Shown: positions 22,609-30,782 of the stretch, in pieces | How the letters are laid out: every line of letters begins with the position of its first letter | How positions within the stretch are numbered: the stretch's first letter is position 1 | NCBI GenBank assembly: GCA_030019395.1 | Contig: JASEES010000008.1 | Span: 1 to 36,819, forward strand | Direction: 5' to 3' | Source: Methanolinea sp. | Lineage (GTDB): Archaea; Halobacteriota; Methanomicrobia; Methanomicrobiales; Methanospirillaceae | Length of the DNA: 36,819 bases | Made by a program: the position numbers and the translations under genes | Notes under the pieces: generated by a model | Databases searched by the model: none | Seen by the model: only the letters and a program-made list of their open reading frames with translations | Told to the model about the DNA's origin: nothing

Positions 22609-23193
22609 TCACACGTCCACCTTTATTTCGATCGGGCCCCGCGATTCATTCTCATAGGCTGACAGAGCACGGGGAACGCCTGTCATGACGGTATTCACAA
22701 GGGCTCGTCCGAGTGGTGTTGCGGTTCCTGCATACCGATGGATTGGTTTGCCCTCGCAAGCAACGATCACGGCATCGGTGGGTGTTGCAATGAAGTCGTG
22801 GCCTCGCCGGAGGAGGGCCGCCGTCTTGGCACTGCTGATTGTTCCAATGGCCTCTGCGAGTGCGTTCATTCGCAGTCCTTCACGGCTTACAGCAATGATA
22901 TTGATTGTACTTGAAGAATACCCGGCGGTGATGAAAACAGTCAGAAAAGCTGATTTACAAATGACGAGGTTTTGCATGGGGACTGCTGTAAGGAGGCCAT
23001 AAAAAGATCCGTTTATTCGCTCATCCCGCGCAATGTCACGGATAAAGGCGAGGGGATCAGCGTCGTGCCAGTCACGCGGAACGGTATGGTTGAAGAGTGC
23101 GGATACCCTGGAGAACCCCCCGCCGACTCCTGTCGATACGGCGAGGAAATCTCCCTCGATGATAAGAGTGGTGGGAGACCAGCGATAGTCCAT
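22609..23193 (-). CDS. cbiZ: Adenosylcobinamide amidohydrolase CbiZ
   Basis: This 194-residue CbiZ-family protein contains the family segments TGVGGG, VPRDWHDADP, FITAGYSSST and GHDFIATPTDAVIVACEG. CbiZ removes the aminopropanol (nucleotide-loop) side chain from cobinamide or pseudocobalamin to give adenosylcobyric acid, which is then rebuilt into the cell's own cobamide using CobD/CobY-type enzymes. The ATG at 23193 has GGAGGG 2-7 bases upstream, favouring it over a TTG at 23208. It lies divergent from the pilin-btuF operon, and cbiZ next to btuCDF is a known archaeal arrangement. Confidence 0.9.
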   Translation of the reverse strand: MDYRWSPTTLIIEGDFLAVSTGVGGGFSRVSALFNHTVPRDWHDADPLAFIRDIARDERINGSFYGLLTAVPMQNLVICKSAFLTVFITAGYSSSTINIIAVSREGLRMNALAEAIGTISSAKTAALLRRGHDFIATPTDAVIVACEGKPIHRYAGTATPLGRALVNTVMTGVPRALSAYENESRGPIEIKVDV

Positions 23194-23234
23194 ATTCCCT
23201 CCTTCCAATACGGTTTATTCTCCTAATCGTAATT

Positions 23235-23250: not shown

Positions 23251-23333
23251 TGTTAAAACCTTTCAGGGCATGGATGGGAGTATTCCGGGGATTATCTCTT
23301 TCACATAATTATAAATAAATTTGTTTTATTACA

Positions 23334-23355
23334 ATTTAAATTGATCAATTTAAAT
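23334..23355 (+). promoter_or_regulatory. Perfect 22-bp palindrome at the pilin-btuF promoter
   Basis: The half-site ATTTAAATTGA is mirrored exactly around TGATCA. It lies 78 bases before the first pilin ATG, overlaps a TATA-like TTTAAATA (23349-23356), and sits in a very AT-rich stretch. A perfect dyad this long is unlikely by chance even in AT-rich DNA, so a dimeric regulator site is proposed. Confidence 0.6.
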
Positions 23356-23432
23356 AGTTGTAGATCAAATTATTTTTTGTTGTGCAGCGGACGGGCCCAC
23401 CCTGCACAACTCCTGGAAATTGGAGGAATAGA

Positions 23433-24056
23433 ATGGATGATAAAAAGGAAAGCGCCGTCTCGCCGGTTGTCGGCGTCATGCTGATGCTCGTCGTGACGAT
23501 CATCATCGCCGCGGTTGTGAGCGGTTTTGCCGGCGGTCTTGCGGGTAGTACAAAAGCGGCACCCCAGGCATCTATCGCTGTCAGGATTGATACCGCGGCC
23601 GATAATACAATGGGTGGTACCGATACGAAAATGACATTTGAACACCTCAGTGGTGACCCTATTAACACTAAAGATTTGAAGATCATCACGTATTACACGA
23701 ACAGAACCGGGTACGTCTACAAGCATGAACAGACGGCCTCGAGTGAGGCCACTGACCTTTATGGGTATGGATCCCTGACCCGGGTGCCGTTCATTAACGA
23801 CATGCGGTCTGGATATTCTGGAAACAACCCGGCCAAGGATTTTGGGAACTTTACATGGAAGACGGGTGACGTCCTGAGTACTGGCAATGTAGCCGGAACT
23901 GCATCATTGCTCGGTATAGGTTTTACCCGGGGAACATATCCGGATCCTGGCACTTTCAACGAGACCGATTTCAAGCCGGGGTGTGTCGTTGATGTCAAGA
24001 TCCTGCACATTCCGAGCGGTAAATACATCTATGACAAGGAGGTGGTCGTGGAATGA
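23433..24056 (+). CDS. Archaeal type IV pilin (DUF1628), first copy
   Basis: This 207-residue protein has a class III signal peptide. A short charged start (MDDKKES) is followed by AVSPVVGVMLMLVVTIII and a long hydrophobic helix that forms the filament core. The cleaved pilin head is beta-rich and Thr/Gly/Asn-rich. The start is fixed by TTGGAGGAATAG just upstream. Its stop overlaps the second pilin (ATGA). The signal part is identical at protein level to that of the second copy. Filament type (adhesion or other) is unknown. Confidence 0.85.
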   Translation: MDDKKESAVSPVVGVMLMLVVTIIIAAVVSGFAGGLAGSTKAAPQASIAVRIDTAADNTMGGTDTKMTFEHLSGDPINTKDLKIITYYTNRTGYVYKHEQTASSEATDLYGYGSLTRVPFINDMRSGYSGNNPAKDFGNFTWKTGDVLSTGNVAGTASLLGIGFTRGTYPDPGTFNETDFKPGCVVDVKILHIPSGKYIYDKEVVVE

Positions 24057-24652
24057 AACAGGATAGAGATTCTGCGGTTTCACCGGTTGTCGGCGTCATG
24101 CTGATGCTCGTCGTGACTATCATCATCGCCGCGGTTGTGAGCGGTTTTGCCGGTGGGCTTGTGGGTGAGAATAAAAAAGCCCCCCAGGCGTCAATCAAGG
24201 TGAGTCCGGCGATCGAGTCCATCCAGGACACGAACCCCTCAAACTGGGAGTCCGATTACCCGGTAGGATTCACTGCCCGGAACGGTCTCCTTTTCGAACA
24301 TACCGGGGGGGATGGGTTTGCCCTCGCGGACATTGCCATCCAGATCCAGAGCCAGGACGCCAAGTACACAATCTCCCTGACTGACAAGATTCCCTCATCC
24401 ACATGCCTTCCCACGGATGTCAAAAAGTATCTTACCGAGGTCGGGTCAAGTGACGGATTCATCACGTCGGGAGACAAGTTCATGCTGAATGCCGATAACT
24501 GCCGGATAGATCCCATGGGTTCGCAGATATCCTGGAAACCCGATGGGGCAGCGGGAGGTATGGGGGCTTACCTGAATACCCGGTGCGAGTACGCCATCAT
24601 TGACAGAGCGAGCCAGAAGGTCATCCAGAAGGGAGAGTTCGTCCTGCAATGA
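24053..24652 (+). CDS. Archaeal type IV pilin (DUF1628), second copy
   Basis: This 199-residue pilin carries the same class III signal (KQDRDSAVSPVVGVML) and hydrophobic helix as the first copy, but a different head domain with two cysteines (TCLPTD and NCRID) that could pair. DNA in the signal region is nearly identical to the first copy (81 of 87 bases), while the heads have diverged. It overlaps its neighbours by ATGA on both sides, so it is translationally coupled to the first pilin and to btuF. Confidence 0.85.
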   Translation: MKQDRDSAVSPVVGVMLMLVVTIIIAAVVSGFAGGLVGENKKAPQASIKVSPAIESIQDTNPSNWESDYPVGFTARNGLLFEHTGGDGFALADIAIQIQSQDAKYTISLTDKIPSSTCLPTDVKKYLTEVGSSDGFITSGDKFMLNADNCRIDPMGSQISWKPDGAAGGMGAYLNTRCEYAIIDRASQKVIQKGEFVLQ

Positions 24653-25878
24653 GGGGACTTTTTACATTTTTTCCGTTCTTCGACGCCGGGCACGCATGCA
24701 CCAGCGAATCATTTTTGGAGAGAAAAAACTGTTTGCAACCGGGAATTCAAAGGGGATATGTCCCCTTCTATTTCCTTTTTGCATGTGCTCTCCTTTTATT
24801 TCTGACAGTCTCTGCGACAGCGACTGTCGTCACCGATGACACGGGCGCAACGGTCACGATTGCATCGCCACCCCAGCGCATCGTCTCCCTCGCCCCGTCG
24901 AACACCGAGATTCTCTTTGCACTCGGGGTCGGAGACAGGGTCGTGGGGGTGACGGATTACTGCAATTATCCGCCGGAAGCCCTGGAAATACCGAAGGTCG
25001 GGGGATATAGCACGGTGAATGTCGAGAAGGTCATTGCGCTCCACCCGGACCTGGTCATTGCCGCCTACGGGAACGGCAAAGAACTGATCGAAAACCTTCG
25101 CTCATTCGGGATCCCCGTCATCTCCCTGCATCCCGCGAACCTCGACGACGTTCTCGACTCCATCGTCCTCGTCGGGACGGCCACGGGTGACGTGGAGAAC
25201 GCGACGACCCTTGCAGGCGAGCTCCGCCGGAGGATCCGTGCCGTGGAGATGGGGGCAGAGGGATCTGACTACCACCCCCGTGTCGCCCATATCATTTGGA
25301 GCGACCCCCTCTACGTCAGCGGCAACGGGACCTTCCAGGACGAACTCATCCGTCTCGCCGGGGGCAAGAATGCATTTTCCCATGTCGAGGGGTGGAAGAA
25401 TGTCGGGATCGAGGACTTCATAGCGGCCGACCCCGAGGTGCTCATCGTGAACAAGGGATCGGGGATGGGCGGCGGGGAAGATGCAATAGCCCGGTACTTC
25501 AGGGAGGAACCGCGGTTTGGAAGGGTTTCGGCTATCCGTAACCAACGGATTTTCCTCGTCGATTCCGACACGGTGGATCGGGCAGGTCCCCGGATCGTGG
25601 ACGCACTCGAGCAGTTTGCAACCGACATCCGGTCTGCGAAGGGTGGAGAAAGTGATCAGGGAGAGCGGGAATCGCACGGGAAGAAAATGCCGGGTTTTCA
25701 GGCACTGGCGGCAACTGCAGCGTGTGCAGTCGTCGTGGTATTTTCAGGGGGGAAAGCAAAGTTCCGTGACTTCTTTCCAAAAAAAGGGACAGATTCAACC
25801 TCCGGATCTGTGATGGTGTTTGTCCGGGACGGTGAAAAAGCAGGAAATTCCTTGGAAAAAACCGCGAAGGTGAAATGA
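24649..25878 (+). CDS. btuF: Corrinoid (cobalamin) ABC-transporter binding protein BtuF-like
   Basis: This 409-residue protein has an unusually long N-terminus before the signal core (YFLFACALLLFLTVSATAT near residue 50). The two-lobed helical-backbone fold follows, with PQRIVSLAPSNTEILFALG and DYCNYPPEALEIPKVGGY, typical of cobalamin and iron-siderophore binding proteins of the BtuF/FhuD class. A C-terminal PGF motif and helix (MPGFQALAATAACAVVVVF) suggest membrane anchoring, followed by 40 more residues. The corrinoid call rests on btuC/btuD and cbiZ nearby. The ATG at 24649 overlaps the pilin stop; a later start cannot be excluded. Confidence 0.8.
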   Translation: MRGLFTFFPFFDAGHACTSESFLERKNCLQPGIQRGYVPFYFLFACALLLFLTVSATATVVTDDTGATVTIASPPQRIVSLAPSNTEILFALGVGDRVVGVTDYCNYPPEALEIPKVGGYSTVNVEKVIALHPDLVIAAYGNGKELIENLRSFGIPVISLHPANLDDVLDSIVLVGTATGDVENATTLAGELRRRIRAVEMGAEGSDYHPRVAHIIWSDPLYVSGNGTFQDELIRLAGGKNAFSHVEGWKNVGIEDFIAADPEVLIVNKGSGMGGGEDAIARYFREEPRFGRVSAIRNQRIFLVDSDTVDRAGPRIVDALEQFATDIRSAKGGESDQGERESHGKKMPGFQALAATAACAVVVVFSGGKAKFRDFFPKKGTDSTSGSVMVFVRDGEKAGNSLEKTAKVK

Positions 25879-25879
25879 A

Positions 25880-26248
25880 ATGTCACGTTTTTATGGTTAC
25901 TCGCCGAAAGGCACCGTGAAGAGTGCCGTCGAATCGTTTGAATCGACAACGCAGGTAAGTGCCCCCGGAGGGGTCCTCCTCGGGACGGTCTATATTGACA
26001 TCCGCGAGGAGGAATGGGCGGTGGCGATGGCATTCGGGAGGACGAGGCACCCGACGATCCGGGGCCCGGAACCAACCTACGAAGTCCGGTATTCCTTCAG
26101 GCCACAGGGAGGAACCACGGTTGCGTTCCTCGACACGCGGAAGGGAGAGACTGTCCCGCTACCGGGAATGTCATTTTCCTCGGTCGATGAATTCGTCCTG
26201 TGGGCGATCGGAAAGGAGAGGGAACGATTGGGTGCAAAAGGGATTTAA
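25880..26248 (+). CDS. Unknown protein in the pilin-btuF operon
   Basis: This 122-residue soluble protein follows btuF after 1 base and has AAGGTGAA upstream. It is rich in charged and aromatic residues (MSRFYGYSPKGTVKSAVESFE, EEEWAVAMAFGRTRHPTIRG) with no membrane segment or known motif. Its place in the operon suggests a role in the same process, but nothing in the sequence shows it. A T-rich tract follows the stop. Confidence 0.6.
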   Translation: MSRFYGYSPKGTVKSAVESFESTTQVSAPGGVLLGTVYIDIREEEWAVAMAFGRTRHPTIRGPEPTYEVRYSFRPQGGTTVAFLDTRKGETVPLPGMSFSSVDEFVLWAIGKERERLGAKGI

Positions 26249-26555: not shown

Positions 26556-26750
26556 TCATGCCTCGTACGCCACCAGGATTGCTCCGGATTCTTTTTCGAG
26601 GGACCGGATACGCGAGAGCTCCTGGGGCGAGAGTTTCTTGTACGCCGGTATCCTGTCATACGCGACAAGAATGACGCCGAGTTTCTTTTCAAGTGCTCTG
26701 ATCTCCTCGATCTGTTTCTCAGAGATTTTTGCGGGCCTGGGGCATTCCAT
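26556..26750 (-). CDS. Small protein with two copies of an LEKxxGxILVAY repeat
   Basis: This 64-residue protein is made of two similar halves: EIRALEKKLGVILVAYDR and RIRSLEKESGAILVAYEA, each preceded by a short helix (KISEKQIE, KLSPQEL). No known family is recognised. The halves suggest a folded pair of helix-strand units that could bind a ligand or form dimers. GGTGAT lies a few bases before the ATG. It is transcribed toward the btuF operon and away from the NAD-binding gene. Confidence 0.55.
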   Translation of the reverse strand: MECPRPAKISEKQIEEIRALEKKLGVILVAYDRIPAYKKLSPQELSRIRSLEKESGAILVAYEA

Positions 26751-26781: not shown

Positions 26782-27031
26782 ATTCTTTTATATTTTATCT
26801 CAAATAGCATTGAAATATCACAATTTTTTTTGGATCGTGGAAATAGACCATGGGAAGGCAAGGCTCCCTTTTCCGGCAGGAACACCCATGCCTCCCCCGA
26901 AACCCACGTCGCGGCAGCTTGTTTTCCAAAGAACGATTTGATAAGGAGATCCTGTTTCTGCCTCTGATCTGCCTCAAAAAAGCATGGAAGCCTTTTTATT
27001 CCTGTTCAACCATGGACAAGTCCCGGCCACG

Positions 27032-27682
27032 TCAGGAATAGCCTGCTCCTGTGTCTTTTTCAAGGACCGTGAGAACCCCGTGGCACCTGCAGGCAGTCCC
27101 GACAACTATCTTTTCCCTGCTCGTATTCATGGCCAGGAGTACCTGCACATCACTTCCACGGAGGGCCCCCAGGCCTGGTGCGACCTGCAGGCTTTCGAGG
27201 ACTTGGGCTTCAGGCAGCAGTCTCTTCAATTCCGAGGAGAGCCGGATGGATCGTGGTTCTCCTGTGACGGGGCACGTGGGCGGCTCAGGGCAGTCAGGAA
27301 TGCACAACCACCCATTGTTTTGCGAAAGGTACACGGAACCCCCGTTCGTTCCCTGTATGAGATCCGGGGGAATTCTCGAAAGGAGGGGCTGGAGACCCGG
27401 GGGAGATTCCCGGACGCGATGCGCAACAGAGACCAGGCCTGCTGCCACGTGGACGGGAGCGGTCGGGAACACGCGCACTGGTCTGTATTGGATGAAAATA
27501 CGAAATGCCTCTTCGAGTCCCCCATGCACGAAGAAGGAGCCGTTGTCCATCTCCCGGATGATACCGATTGCCAGGCAGCCGGGATCAGGATCGACGATGA
27601 TACAGGGAATTCCCCTGGTGAAGAGGTAGCGAGCCGCCTTCGTGCCGTATCTTCCTCCACCCACCACCAGGTCCACCTGCAT
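27032..27682 (-). CDS. Rossmann-type NAD(P)-binding protein, unknown substrate
   Basis: The protein is 216 residues from the ATG at 27682. The N-terminus has the dinucleotide-binding motif VVGGGRYGTKAARYL followed by an acidic strand end VDPDP, as in TrkA-N or siroheme-type dehydrogenases. The rest (proline-rich middle, cysteine-containing CIPDCPEPPTCP, ending TACRCHGVLTVLEKD) has no clear match to me. It is divergent from btuC across only 54 bases and may be co-regulated. The role in cobamide uptake is unproven. Confidence 0.6.
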   Translation of the reverse strand: MQVDLVVGGGRYGTKAARYLFTRGIPCIIVDPDPGCLAIGIIREMDNGSFFVHGGLEEAFRIFIQYRPVRVFPTAPVHVAAGLVSVAHRVRESPPGLQPLLSRIPPDLIQGTNGGSVYLSQNNGWLCIPDCPEPPTCPVTGEPRSIRLSSELKRLLPEAQVLESLQVAPGLGALRGSDVQVLLAMNTSREKIVVGTACRCHGVLTVLEKDTGAGYS

Positions 27683-27699
27683 CACCACGGACTCTATAA

Positions 27700-27730
27700 A
27701 AAATTATTTTAGTTAAAACAAATTAATTTT
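27700..27730 (+). promoter_or_regulatory. Imperfect 31-bp dyad in the btuC promoter
   Basis: AAAATTATTTT on one side mirrors AAATTAATTTT on the other; 12 of 15 positions pair across the centre. It lies 7-37 bases upstream of the btuC ATG and covers its TATA region. It also lies upstream of the divergent NAD-binding gene, so a protein bound here could control both. Confidence 0.45.
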
Positions 27731-27736
27731 ATTCAT

Positions 27737-28690
27737 ATGTCGTGGCGCAGATCGGGAGTTATATTTCTTCTCCTCGCATGCCTGCTCGGTGCCAGCATCG
27801 TGATATGCACGCTCGTCGGCCCTGCAGGTGTCCCCCTCCTCTCCCTCGCCGGGGACGAGTCCGGAGCGACCATCCTCTACGGGGTACGCCTGCCCCGGGT
27901 AATCTCCGCTGTTCTCGTCGGTGCCGGCCTTGCGGCTGCCGGTGTCGTCATGCAGGGCCTTTTCCGGAACTCCATGGCAGATCCCTACCTTCTCGGTACA
28001 TCGGCCGGGGGTGCCCTCGGAGCCGCAACCGCCATCGTCCTGCTCGGAGGCGCCTTCTCCATGCCCCTCGCATTCGCAGGGTGCATCGGGGCGGCATTTC
28101 TCGTTTATGGCATTTCACGGCGGGCAGGGCGCGTGCCCGTCGAGCAGCTCCTGCTCACGGGGATCGCGGTCTCGATGTTCCTTTCTGCGGTCCTTTCGTT
28201 TCTCATGTACATATCGGGAGAAAGTCTCCACCAGATTTTCCTCTGGCTGATGGGCGGGTTCTGGACGGCATCCTGGCAGGATGCCTGGACGGGCCTCCTG
28301 GTCCTCCCTGCGGCTGTACCCCTCCTCCTGCTTGCGCGGGAACAGGACATTCTCTCGCTCGGTGAGGAAGATGCCCTCTCACTCGGTGTGGACATCGAGC
28401 TTCTCAAGAAATGTCTCCTCGTCATCAGTTCCTTCGTGACTGCTGTTGCCGTCTCCATCGCGGGGAGCATCGGTTTCATCGGGCTGATAACTCCCCACAT
28501 CATGCGCCTCTGGGTCGGTCCGGGTCACCGTATACTCCTCCCGTCGTCCATGATGGCAGGCGGGATCCTGCTCGTCCTCTCCGATACCCTTGCCCGGACT
28601 GCAGGAAACGAGGTACCCGTCGGGGTGGTGACGGCATTCTTCGGAGCCCCGTTTTTTGTCTTTCTCCTTCGCAGGAGGTATGCATCGTGA
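27737..28690 (+). CDS. btuC: Corrinoid ABC-transporter permease BtuC
   Basis: This 317-residue polytopic membrane protein of the FecCD/BtuC family has about ten helices. Typical segments are LPRVISAVLVGAGLAAAGVVMQGLFRNSMADPYLLG and, near the end, GLITPHIMRLWVGPGHR. The coupling region that contacts BtuD is present. It overlaps btuD by 4 bases (GTGA). The substrate is inferred from the corrinoid genes around it; iron-siderophore permeases are close relatives. Confidence 0.87.
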   Translation: MSWRRSGVIFLLLACLLGASIVICTLVGPAGVPLLSLAGDESGATILYGVRLPRVISAVLVGAGLAAAGVVMQGLFRNSMADPYLLGTSAGGALGAATAIVLLGGAFSMPLAFAGCIGAAFLVYGISRRAGRVPVEQLLLTGIAVSMFLSAVLSFLMYISGESLHQIFLWLMGGFWTASWQDAWTGLLVLPAAVPLLLLAREQDILSLGEEDALSLGVDIELLKKCLLVISSFVTAVAVSIAGSIGFIGLITPHIMRLWVGPGHRILLPSSMMAGGILLVLSDTLARTAGNEVPVGVVTAFFGAPFFVFLLRRRYAS

Positions 28691-29940
28691 TAGACGTCTC
28701 GGGAGTCGAGCTCGGTTACGGGGCGCAGGTGGTCCTGTCAGAAGTGTCTTTCCGATCGGGGAAGGGGGAATTCCTCGGCATCGTCGGTCCCAACGGCTCG
28801 GGAAAGACCACGCTCCTCAAGGCGATAGCGCGCCTCCTTATGCCCTCGCACGGCGTCATCCTGCTCGACGGAAAGGAGATAGGGGCGTTTTCGGCCATCG
28901 GTCTGTCACGACTGGTAGGACTGGTTCCCCAGGCATCATCACCCGGCTTCGATTACTCCGTGCGGGACGTCGTGATGATGGGGCGCTATCCCCACATCGG
29001 GATGTTCGGGGGGGAGACTCCTGCCGACCGCGATGCTGCGAAGAAGGCCATGGATGTGACCGGCATTGCCCAGCTCGCAGAAAGGTCGGTCCGGGAGATC
29101 TCCGGGGGCGAGCTCCAGCGGGTCATCATCGCGCGGGCGCTTGCCCAGGAACCCGAGGTGCTCCTCCTCGACGAGGCGACTGCCCACCTCGACCTCGGGC
29201 ACCAGGTCAGCATTCTCCAGATGATCAGGGATCTTTCGCGCCGGGTTGCTGTTATCGGGGTTTTCCACGACCTCAACCATGCGGCATACTTCTGCGACCG
29301 CATTATCCTCATCCATGACCACAGGATCCTCGCAATGGGGGACCCGGCAGGGGTGTTGACAGAGGAGAACATCGCCAGGGTGTTCGGGGTCAGGGCGATA
29401 GTCCGGATGAACCCGCTGTCAGGTCGCCTGGTCATTTCTCCCGTGCTTCATCCTTCATGCGAAGCAGTGAAGGATTCGCGTGTTCACGTCATCTGCGGCG
29501 GTGGCGAGGGTGCAGGGATACTCGTTGCACTCCGCGACGGGGGATACCGGGTTACGGCAGGGGTGCTTTCCCTCAATGACAGCGATTACCTCGCGGCAGA
29601 GGCACTTGGGATACCATGTCTCACCGAACCACCTTTCTGTCCCATTTCAGAAGGGTCCCGACGGGACCTCGAGATGCTCGCGCGAGACGCGGACGCAATC
29701 GTCGTTACGCGCGGCCCGTGGGGAGCAGGGAACATCGAGAACCTGCGCGTTCTTTCGGCCCTGGACGCTGGCACCATCGTGATTATGGGTATTGCGTCAT
29801 GGGACGGCATGAATTGGGATTACACCGGCGGGGAGGCAGAAAGGATCCTTTGTTCGCTGAGAGAGAAAGGGGCCCGTGTTACTGATGATGTTCCTGCAGC
29901 CCTTGCTGCAGTCAGGGAGATTACGGGGGAAAAGAAATGA
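28687..29940 (+). CDS. btuD: Corrinoid ABC-transporter ATPase BtuD with C-terminal extra domain
   Basis: The protein is 417 residues from the GTG at 28687, which overlaps the btuC stop. ABC motifs are complete: Walker A GPNGSGKTT (34-42), Q-loop Q82, signature SGGEL (about 139), Walker B LLLDEAT (159-165) and H-loop His 194. After residue 265 comes an added domain of about 150 residues beginning VHVICGGGEGAGILVAL, with ITRGPWG-like and MGIASWDG segments. Such long BtuD proteins are known in halophiles and methanogens, but the extra domain's function is not known to me. It is followed by a TIM-barrel gene that overlaps by ATGA. Confidence 0.88.
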   Translation: MIDVSGVELGYGAQVVLSEVSFRSGKGEFLGIVGPNGSGKTTLLKAIARLLMPSHGVILLDGKEIGAFSAIGLSRLVGLVPQASSPGFDYSVRDVVMMGRYPHIGMFGGETPADRDAAKKAMDVTGIAQLAERSVREISGGELQRVIIARALAQEPEVLLLDEATAHLDLGHQVSILQMIRDLSRRVAVIGVFHDLNHAAYFCDRIILIHDHRILAMGDPAGVLTEENIARVFGVRAIVRMNPLSGRLVISPVLHPSCEAVKDSRVHVICGGGEGAGILVALRDGGYRVTAGVLSLNDSDYLAAEALGIPCLTEPPFCPISEGSRRDLEMLARDADAIVVTRGPWGAGNIENLRVLSALDAGTIVIMGIASWDGMNWDYTGGEAERILCSLREKGARVTDDVPAALAAVREITGEKK

Positions 29941-30782
29941 GGGAGCCCGGCTGTTCCACCTGGTGCTTTTTTGACCGGGGCCTCCCCGCGGCCATCGAAG
30001 AACTCTGTGCCCGGACGAATACGATCGAGATATTTGCGGATGCAGCCCACGATATCCTCGGCAGGAATCCGCTGCCCGTGCCGGATGACGATATCACTCT
30101 CTCCGTCCATGCCCCGACAGCTGATATCAATATCGCGAGCTGCCGCGAGACGGTCCGGAATGCATCCATCGGTCTCATCGCCGGGGTGTGCCAGCGGGCA
30201 GCAGAGATGGGGGCATCGCACGTCGTCGTCCACCCGGGTTTTTCTCCGTGGCCCGAACAGGAGCAGGATTCATTCTCAGCGCTCCTCCGTTCACTCGACG
30301 ATCTCGCCCGCATTCAGGAGCAAACGGGCATGGACGTAGCCGTCGAAAATATGGGAAGCTGGGAGATGTGCCACTTCCGGGACCCCGGGCTTCTCCCCGA
30401 ACTTTCCGGGAGGGGGCTCTCGTTCTGCCTCGACGTGGGACATGCTTTCCTGAACGGAGTCCTGGACGACTTCCTCTCCCGTGGGTCACCCTGCGCCGTC
30501 CACATCCATGACAACCGGGGAAAGACCGACGACCACCTCGCGCCGGGAATGGGGAGCATTGATTTCCCGTGGATTTTCCGGCACCTTTCACGGAGAATAC
30601 CGTGGATCCTCGAAGTCACGGACCGTACAATGGTTGACCGCGGGCTGCTCGCTCTCGCGAATCCTGGTGCCATGAACGGGCAGGGGATTGAGAACAACGA
30701 AGACAATCCTTGTCACTCTCCAGTTCCCCGGGAAAGCAGGGAAGTACCTCCCAAGTTTTCATGTATCTATAAACAAAAATGA
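29937..30782 (+). CDS. Xylose isomerase-like TIM-barrel protein (AP endonuclease 2 superfamily)
   Basis: This 281-residue protein has the sugar phosphate isomerase/epimerase or endonuclease IV-type barrel. Likely metal ligands occur in HAP, VVHPGF, VENMG (Glu), CLDVGH (Asp, His) and HIHDN (His). It overlaps btuD by ATGA, so it belongs to the corrinoid operon. It could act on a sugar or sugar phosphate, for example from the nucleotide loop of imported cobamides, but the sequence does not show the substrate. The C-terminal 35 residues look disordered. Confidence 0.72.
   Translation: MREPGCSTWCFFDRGLPAAIEELCARTNTIEIFADAAHDILGRNPLPVPDDDITLSVHAPTADINIASCRETVRNASIGLIAGVCQRAAEMGASHVVVHPGFSPWPEQEQDSFSALLRSLDDLARIQEQTGMDVAVENMGSWEMCHFRDPGLLPELSGRGLSFCLDVGHAFLNGVLDDFLSRGSPCAVHIHDNRGKTDDHLAPGMGSIDFPWIFRHLSRRIPWILEVTDRTMVDRGLLALANPGAMNGQGIENNEDNPCHSPVPRESREVPPKFSCIYKQK

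Follow-up and report, generated by a model that had tools for sequence, protein, structure and literature searches.

A shared operator suggests joint control of pilus and vitamin B12 uptake genes of a methanogen through the supply of cobalt or vitamin B12

The palindrome and its intergenic region

The window, i.e. the whole stretch of 36,819 bases of Methanolinea sp. that was analysed, contains a 224-nt region between cbiZ on the minus strand and a pair of pilin genes, which are followed by btuF, ORF122, btuC, btuD and a CbiR-like gene. In this region lies ATTTAAATTGATCAATTTAAAT (23334-23355), which is 22 bp long and identical to its own reverse complement. A sequence-only reading had described it as a palindrome perfect at 11 of 11 positions that covers the probable TATA box, and both observations hold, as TTTAAATA (23348-23355) falls within the right arm. 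The features are the following:

22609-23208, minus strand: cbiZ, adenosylcobinamide amidohydrolase, the divergent gene (PF01955, 99 bits)
23312-23343, minus strand: left two-unit operator, facing cbiZ (cbiM-derived matrix 25.7; model R2 on the minus strand, E 1e-4)
23312-23323, minus strand: unit Z of the left operator, TAAATAAATTTG
23332-23343, minus strand: unit A of the left operator, CAATTTAAATTG, an 8-bp linker away from unit Z
23334-23355, no strand: the palindrome, at the junction of operator units A and B
23346-23377, plus strand: right two-unit operator, facing the pilin operon (cbiM-derived matrix 18.9; conserved in pilin promoters)
23346-23357, plus strand: unit B of the right operator, CAATTTAAATAG, covering the probable BRE and TATA box
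23348-23355, plus strand: probable TATA box TTTAAATA, judged by its sequence, inside unit B
23366-23377, plus strand: unit C of the right operator, an 8-bp linker away from unit B, at the predicted start site
23379-23410, plus strand: conserved hairpin in the 5' leader of the pilin mRNA, from the predicted transcription start onwards (models A3/R1)
23433-24056, plus strand: pilin 1, archaeal type IV pilin (PF07790, 94.5 bits)
24053-24652, plus strand: pilin 2 (PF07790, 81 bits)
24649-25878, plus strand: btuF-like substrate-binding protein (PF01497)
25880-26248, plus strand: ORF122, small conserved protein with no Pfam match over the cut-off
26556-26750, minus strand: 64-aa ORF behind the candidate operator 26801-26832, with no Pfam family
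26801-26832, no strand: fourth candidate operator (16.3), 50 bp before the 64-aa ORF; also in G009 (L063)
27032-27688, minus strand: ORF218, flanking the operator 27699-27730 on the side opposite btuC
27699-27730, no strand: operator between ORF218 and btuC (29.0, best in the window), 7 bp before btuC
27737-28690, plus strand: btuC permease (PF01032)
28675-29940, plus strand: btuD ATPase (PF00005; best NCBIfam match a corrinoid ABC transporter ATPase, below its cut-off)
29937-30782, plus strand: CbiR-like TIM-barrel protein, cobamide remodelling (NF041277, 57 bits, below the cut-off of 105)

With its 22 bp, the palindrome is the longest perfect one of the window (the next longest has 16 bp). 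Perfect palindromes of at least 22 bp appeared in 2.3e-4 of 200,000 first-order Markov sequences with the composition of the 224-nt region, and in 8e-4 with that of the AT-rich 91-nt core, meaning that such a palindrome is unusual at this site, though not out of reach once across all intergenic regions of a genome. The informative part is the larger symmetry around it: an imperfect inverted repeat (23313-23376) encloses the palindrome with arms 23313-23344 and 23345-23376, which are 78% complementary with a spacer of 0, and blastn aligns the region with its own reverse complement (81%, E 8.5e-9).

Judging from the sequences compared, the conserved unit is a palindromic 12-mer, CAA-N6-TTG, which occurs in pairs. 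Each operator consists of two such 12-mers with an 8-bp linker, so that the distance from unit to unit is 20 bp (about two helical turns), and a 2-bp linker separates the two back-to-back operators, the junction of which yields the perfect palindrome. Because unit B must also serve as TATA box, it reads TAG where the consensus has TTG, and part of its conservation is therefore that of the core promoter. An archaeal core promoter would have a TATA-like octamer about 25-30 bp ahead of the start site and a BRE upstream of it; TTTAAATA is the candidate octamer, judged against a predicted start site, and across 22 aligned promoters its bases and the G-T after them hardly vary. As for TTGATCAATTTAAATA, it occurs exactly only once in the genome and at 9 places (the exact one included) with up to 3 mismatches, and was rejected as a general promoter on that account.

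The leader hairpin, with the pattern GTTGTG...CGGGCCC...CTGCACAAC, is a feature separate from the operator. Across the order, 11 of 232 genomes have it ahead of a pilin according to model R1, and when genome contigs were scanned for the exact pattern, the 7 records retrieved all belonged to the same group. Its covariation is weak (two-sided change in 1 of 14 pairs). It was rejected as a known RNA, since the window and 13 related loci gave no Rfam family at gathering score; eight matches below that score were at chance level. Among named records, the conserved leader is carried by Methanolinea and further Methanoregulaceae MAGs, by an unplaced euryarchaeon MAG and by Methanoculleus chikugoensis. 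A possible second hairpin in the leader (23379-23428) pairs with the ribosome-binding site. The pilin operons of genus g5 have a different leader, conserved and structured-looking (GTCATCTACG...CATGATGGC in L095, L099, L100, L104, L114 and L115), for which there was no Rfam match either, and a second pilin cluster, located on the window's contig (L070, C50:43760-46003), has hairpin-like repeats of other sequence in its leader.

The operator before cbiM and other genes

CbiM (PF01891) was found in 107 of 108 genomes of the family, mainly as matches of two lengths, about 630 and 606 bp, of which the longer were presumptively taken as cobalt type (those checked precede CbiN) and the shorter as NikM type. 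Pfam confirms the CbiM and CbiN identities in the inspected loci. From the matches, 70 of the longer genes were sampled for their upstream regions (30 loci and 40 fetched), and after dropping L189 and L203, whose start codon was not found by pattern, 68 cbiM regions from 66 genomes and 11 genera were left, with 20 of the shorter, NikM-type genes as control. Six further cbiM regions, selected by motif and used in a comparison with a pilin-promoter matrix, are not counted among the 68. The pattern CAA-N6-TTG-N8-CAA-N6-TTG, with at most 3 mismatches in its 12 anchor positions, is present in all 68 cbiM regions, beginning 39-72 nt before the start codon, compared to 1 of the 20 NikM-type controls and 177 of 1,360 shuffles. 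The mismatches were 0 in 13 sites, 1 in 30, 2 in 16 and 3 in 9; at no more than one mismatch the count is 43 of 68 versus 1 of 1,360 shuffles. The linker length matters as well: a linker of 8 accounts for 68/68 regions, other linkers for 14-45.

A matrix built from the cbiM sites alone, i.e. with no pilin promoter in its training, was scanned over the 36.8 kb of the window and gave 29.0 for 27699-27730, 25.7 for 23312-23343, 18.9 for 23346-23377 and 16.3 for 26801-26832, the next score being 7.1. The maximum was 8.3 in 200 shuffled windows, while 2,000 composition-matched 224-nt shuffles reached 15.6 at 99.9% and 17.2 at most. The site 26801-26832 and, to a lesser degree, 23346-23377 need care, as their scores are near the shuffle range; the latter is also weaker than most cbiM sites. 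The operator at the btuC position recurs in L062, L063 and L067, and the site of the window genome's own cbiM scores 29.9 (L269), its region (L248) being one of the 68 training genes. As a side observation, the 64-aa ORF is conserved in G005, G009 and G006, and adjoins the winged-helix gene discussed below in G206.

Nearly all sites in 52 long loci, which add up to 790,648 bases with some overlap and most of which had been fetched for holding such genes, precede pilin, cbiZ, lipo259, cbiM, btuC, cobN, ORF122, winged-helix, NikR_C-like or 64-aa ORF genes, which speaks for the position of sites within chosen loci rather than for their frequency genome-wide. Three of these loci (L066, L070 and L283) have no site at matrix score 12. 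Among 778,647 bases, 41 places match the linker-8 pattern with at most one mismatch, compared to 0-5 places for other linkers and 0-2 for five other palindromic words. At 2 mismatches these numbers become 91 versus 8-40 for the controls, and the weak sites therefore include chance ones. One operator is shared by the non-homologous cbiM, btuC, pilin, cbiZ, cobN and winged-helix genes, as is characteristic of a regulon.

A search for the pilin promoter pattern TGATCAANTTAWATAGT with at most one mismatch listed 28 places spread over 26 of the 108 family genomes, compared to 4 for the reverse-read control. Two of the 28 repeat a palindrome already listed, read on its opposite strand, which leaves 26 distinct places. 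Twenty of the 26 lie 97-209 bp before a pilin N-terminus and three precede cbiM (G211, G041 and G219); the remaining three (G197, G047 and G023) have no pilin within 1.5 kb. In the alignment of 22 such promoters, including one Methanoculleus promoter and one cbiM promoter, conservation extends well past the BRE and TATA box. At E up to 0.01, 44 of the 231 genomes that represent the order contain matches to the sequence-only model R2. Its weaker matches (inspected in part) include cbiM genes and ORF122 homologues in the Methanoculleus family, and some, e.g. L139, L145 and L154, have no recognised target. In the window's own genome, at E up to 10, R2 returned nothing but the palindrome's site, matched on either strand, and a single weak match (E 0.5), and it missed the operator of the genome's own cbiM. 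As matches of R2 and of the pattern fell before cbiM and ORF122, a pilin-specific module unrelated to corrinoids was rejected. Most operator-headed clusters include an ORF122 homologue, and in several genomes of the Methanoculleus family it is the gene that immediately follows the operator.

By gene content, the operator-headed clusters tie pilins to cobalt and corrinoid genes across genera. Behind the operator in genus g5 the order is often pilin-pilin-ORF122-btuF-btuC-btuD-CbiR-like or pilin-pilin-CobN-ABC transporter (CobN, CbiA-type and long CbiZ proteins being assigned by Pfam), and in G211 a single operator heads cbiM-cbiN-four pilins-ORF122-btuF-btuC-btuD-CbiR-like-btuF.

Conservation of the dyad and alternative readings

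Of the 13 genomes analysed from the genus of the window genome, 7 have a btuF match at E 1e-30, and in each of these a pilin is preceded by the conserved leader; in the other 6, both such a btuF match and the leader are missing, and pilin matches are weaker or missing too. The dyad was compared in 10 orthologous loci with a readable region (an eleventh, L011, is N-masked there). All 10 share the TGATCA centre and differ little in the right arm, but only the window has the full dyad (11/11 pairs), the others having 7-10 of 11 pairs. Matches in the outer left arm are moderately above expectation, being 41 of 63 with the window included (shuffle mean 31.0, p 0.002) and 34 of 56 with the window excluded (27.4, p 0.025), L004, a near-copy, being omitted from both counts. 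Symmetry about the TGATCA axis, taken over 25 pairs, amounts to 323 of 625 (shuffles 220.7, sd 11.1; slid axes all at most 272), a count that is lowered by the misplacement of L134 by 2 and of L138 by 1.

Both halves were rescored with corrected row positions in 25 promoters, 24 of them pilin promoters and one (L111) that of cbiM in G211. Scores of the right half range over 13.7-32.3 across the whole set; those of the left half are at least 18 in 18 promoters and below 5 in 7. A divergent cbiZ or lipo259 is present in 14 of the 18 promoters with the left half and in none of the 7 without (Fisher 7e-4, for genomes that are related and not independent). The left half is thus present alongside a divergent gene, which points to a bidirectional operator-promoter.

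The proposal that the perfect dyad is the operator does not survive its own conservation test, since all 11 pairs match in 1 of 10 loci while the genes are conserved; as a recognition unit the 22-bp dyad was rejected, the left half being absent or weak in 7 of 25 promoters that keep the right half, and the cbiM operators lacking the TGATCA centre. It is highly improbable that the palindrome forms one dimeric site centred on TGATCA, despite the centre being kept in all 10 loci and despite an axis symmetry above that of the shuffles even with two rows misplaced, because promoters without a recognised divergent gene have mostly lost the left half yet retain the right one. A somewhat likelier, though still improbable, reading holds that the region is only the conserved core promoter (BRE and TATA box) of highly expressed pilin genes, made palindromic by its AT-richness. 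The right arm is indeed TTTAAATA, variable A/T-rich sequence makes up the outer left arm, and chance could bring about one such palindrome among the intergenic regions of a genome; yet the two-unit geometry stands before 68/68 cbiM genes, btuC and cobN and not before NikM-type genes, the second pilin cluster of the contig (L070) is without an operator at matrix score 12, and TTGATCAATTTAAATA is exact just once in the genome. That the palindrome acts as an RNA hairpin or cruciform borders on the negligible: a perfect palindrome could in principle form a stem-loop, but this one is upstream of the predicted pilin start site, and the conserved RNA hairpin, which has no Rfam family at gathering score, is a different segment.

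On our reading, held with a probability of roughly 80%, the palindrome marks the centre of an operator-promoter that works in both directions and belongs to a cobalt/corrinoid regulon of the Methanoregulaceae. The operator, its geometry and its shared occurrence can be read directly from the sequences, while we infer that it serves repression rather than activation and that the effector is the cobalt ion or a corrinoid. The earlier suggestion of one control over filament and corrinoid uptake is well supported at sequence level in so far as the operator is common to cbiM (68/68), btuC and cobN, with halves for cbiZ and pilin-btuF; its other part, the 22-bp dyad as the unit, fell away. This suggests that pilus and vitamin B12 uptake genes would be controlled together by the supply of cobalt or vitamin B12.

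Proposed control, candidate regulator and known systems

When cobalt or corrinoid is sufficient, a dimeric regulator would bind the paired units, and with unit B over the BRE and TATA box and unit C at the start site, its occupancy would block TBP/TFB or RNA polymerase. Upon shortage, cbiM (cobalt import), btuFCD (corrinoid import), cbiZ (corrinoid remodelling) and the pilins would be made together. Repression under sufficiency seems the simplest reading for uptake genes, given how repressors of metal uptake generally work, the alternative being activation under limitation.

With slightly less than an even chance, the best candidate for the regulator is a protein of about 269 aa with a winged helix and DUF7839. 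Its gene lies near operators in 7 of the 19 g5 genomes with fetched neighbourhoods, six homologues being 64-73% identical to the first one; it is divergent from cbiM in G197 and G199, and in four genomes (G037, G210, G197 and G199) an operator is found 68-194 bp before it. It is absent from the window and from 12 cbiM neighbourhoods of the window's genus. The winged helix weakly resembles those of the metal regulators SloR and ScaR (DtxR-type), while the DtxR dimerisation and metal-binding domain was not found in the candidate, which has the winged helix and DUF7839 only.

It is a serious possibility, though with the odds somewhat against it, that the regulon is real and run by another regulator, e.g. 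one using NikR_C-only proteins (in genus g5) or an unlinked factor of the DtxR, Lrp or ArsR type. The linkage of the winged-helix gene in just 7 of 19 g5 genomes would fit with this, as would the NikR_C-like proteins (about 100 aa) that are encoded between a second operator and the pilin operator in six loci (L158, L162, L163, L166, L169 and L170). All 3 of these 6 neighbours that were tested are PF08753, NikR_C only, and the ribbon-helix-helix part of NikR was not found in them, so that they have no known DNA-binding domain; the winged-helix gene, in turn, has an operator in its own promoter region in four genomes, as expected of an autoregulated regulator. A more elaborate proposal, for which the odds are clearly unfavourable, is a dedicated cobalt/corrinoid regulon of the Methanoregulaceae, run by the winged-helix/DUF7839 protein through paired CAA-N6-TTG operators, including a special type IV pilin pair for corrinoid/cobalt scavenging (capture, or contact with corrinoid-releasing partners) and not for general adhesion or motility.

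The methane pathway of methanogens depends on a corrinoid enzyme, and bacteria largely use riboswitches and protein sensors to adjust their cobalt and B12 supply. To our knowledge, this adjustment is poorly described for archaea. With its operator defined, its targets listed and a candidate for its regulator, the system is directly testable in methanogens, and the proposed control common to pilins and corrinoid genes raises the concrete and unusual question of whether archaeal pili serve in nutrient scavenging.

The closest precedent may be the CBL-box, which was reportedly proposed by Rodionov and others in 2003 as the signal of a hypothetical archaeal B12 regulator. In its general description, as a signal in the DNA ahead of cobalamin genes of some archaea and with no known regulator, it resembles the present operator. 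Operons of the NikR/DtxR type likewise have metal uptake genes under a palindromic operator, whereas here the NikM-type promoters have no operator and the candidate has DUF7839 instead of the DtxR metal domains. No description of a paired CAA-N6-TTG operator was found in the literature searched, including passages of PMC10665913, PMC2667541 and PMC7689651. Archaellum promoters offer another archaeal filament gene with a regulator's box beside its BRE and TATA box, namely the EarA box, which is TACATA-like and activating (PMC10665913). EarA serves archaella, however, while the paired units described here overlap the BRE/TATA and start site and are common to cobalt genes, and just upstream of the TATA box there is no TACATA box on the plus strand (expected 9-11 bp before the BRE). 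In bacteria, cobalamin riboswitches control cbiMNQO and btu genes (PMC7689651), and none was matched by Rfam at gathering score in the window or 13 related loci. The target genes are the same, and presumably the physiological logic as well, with control here being exerted through an operator in promoter DNA.
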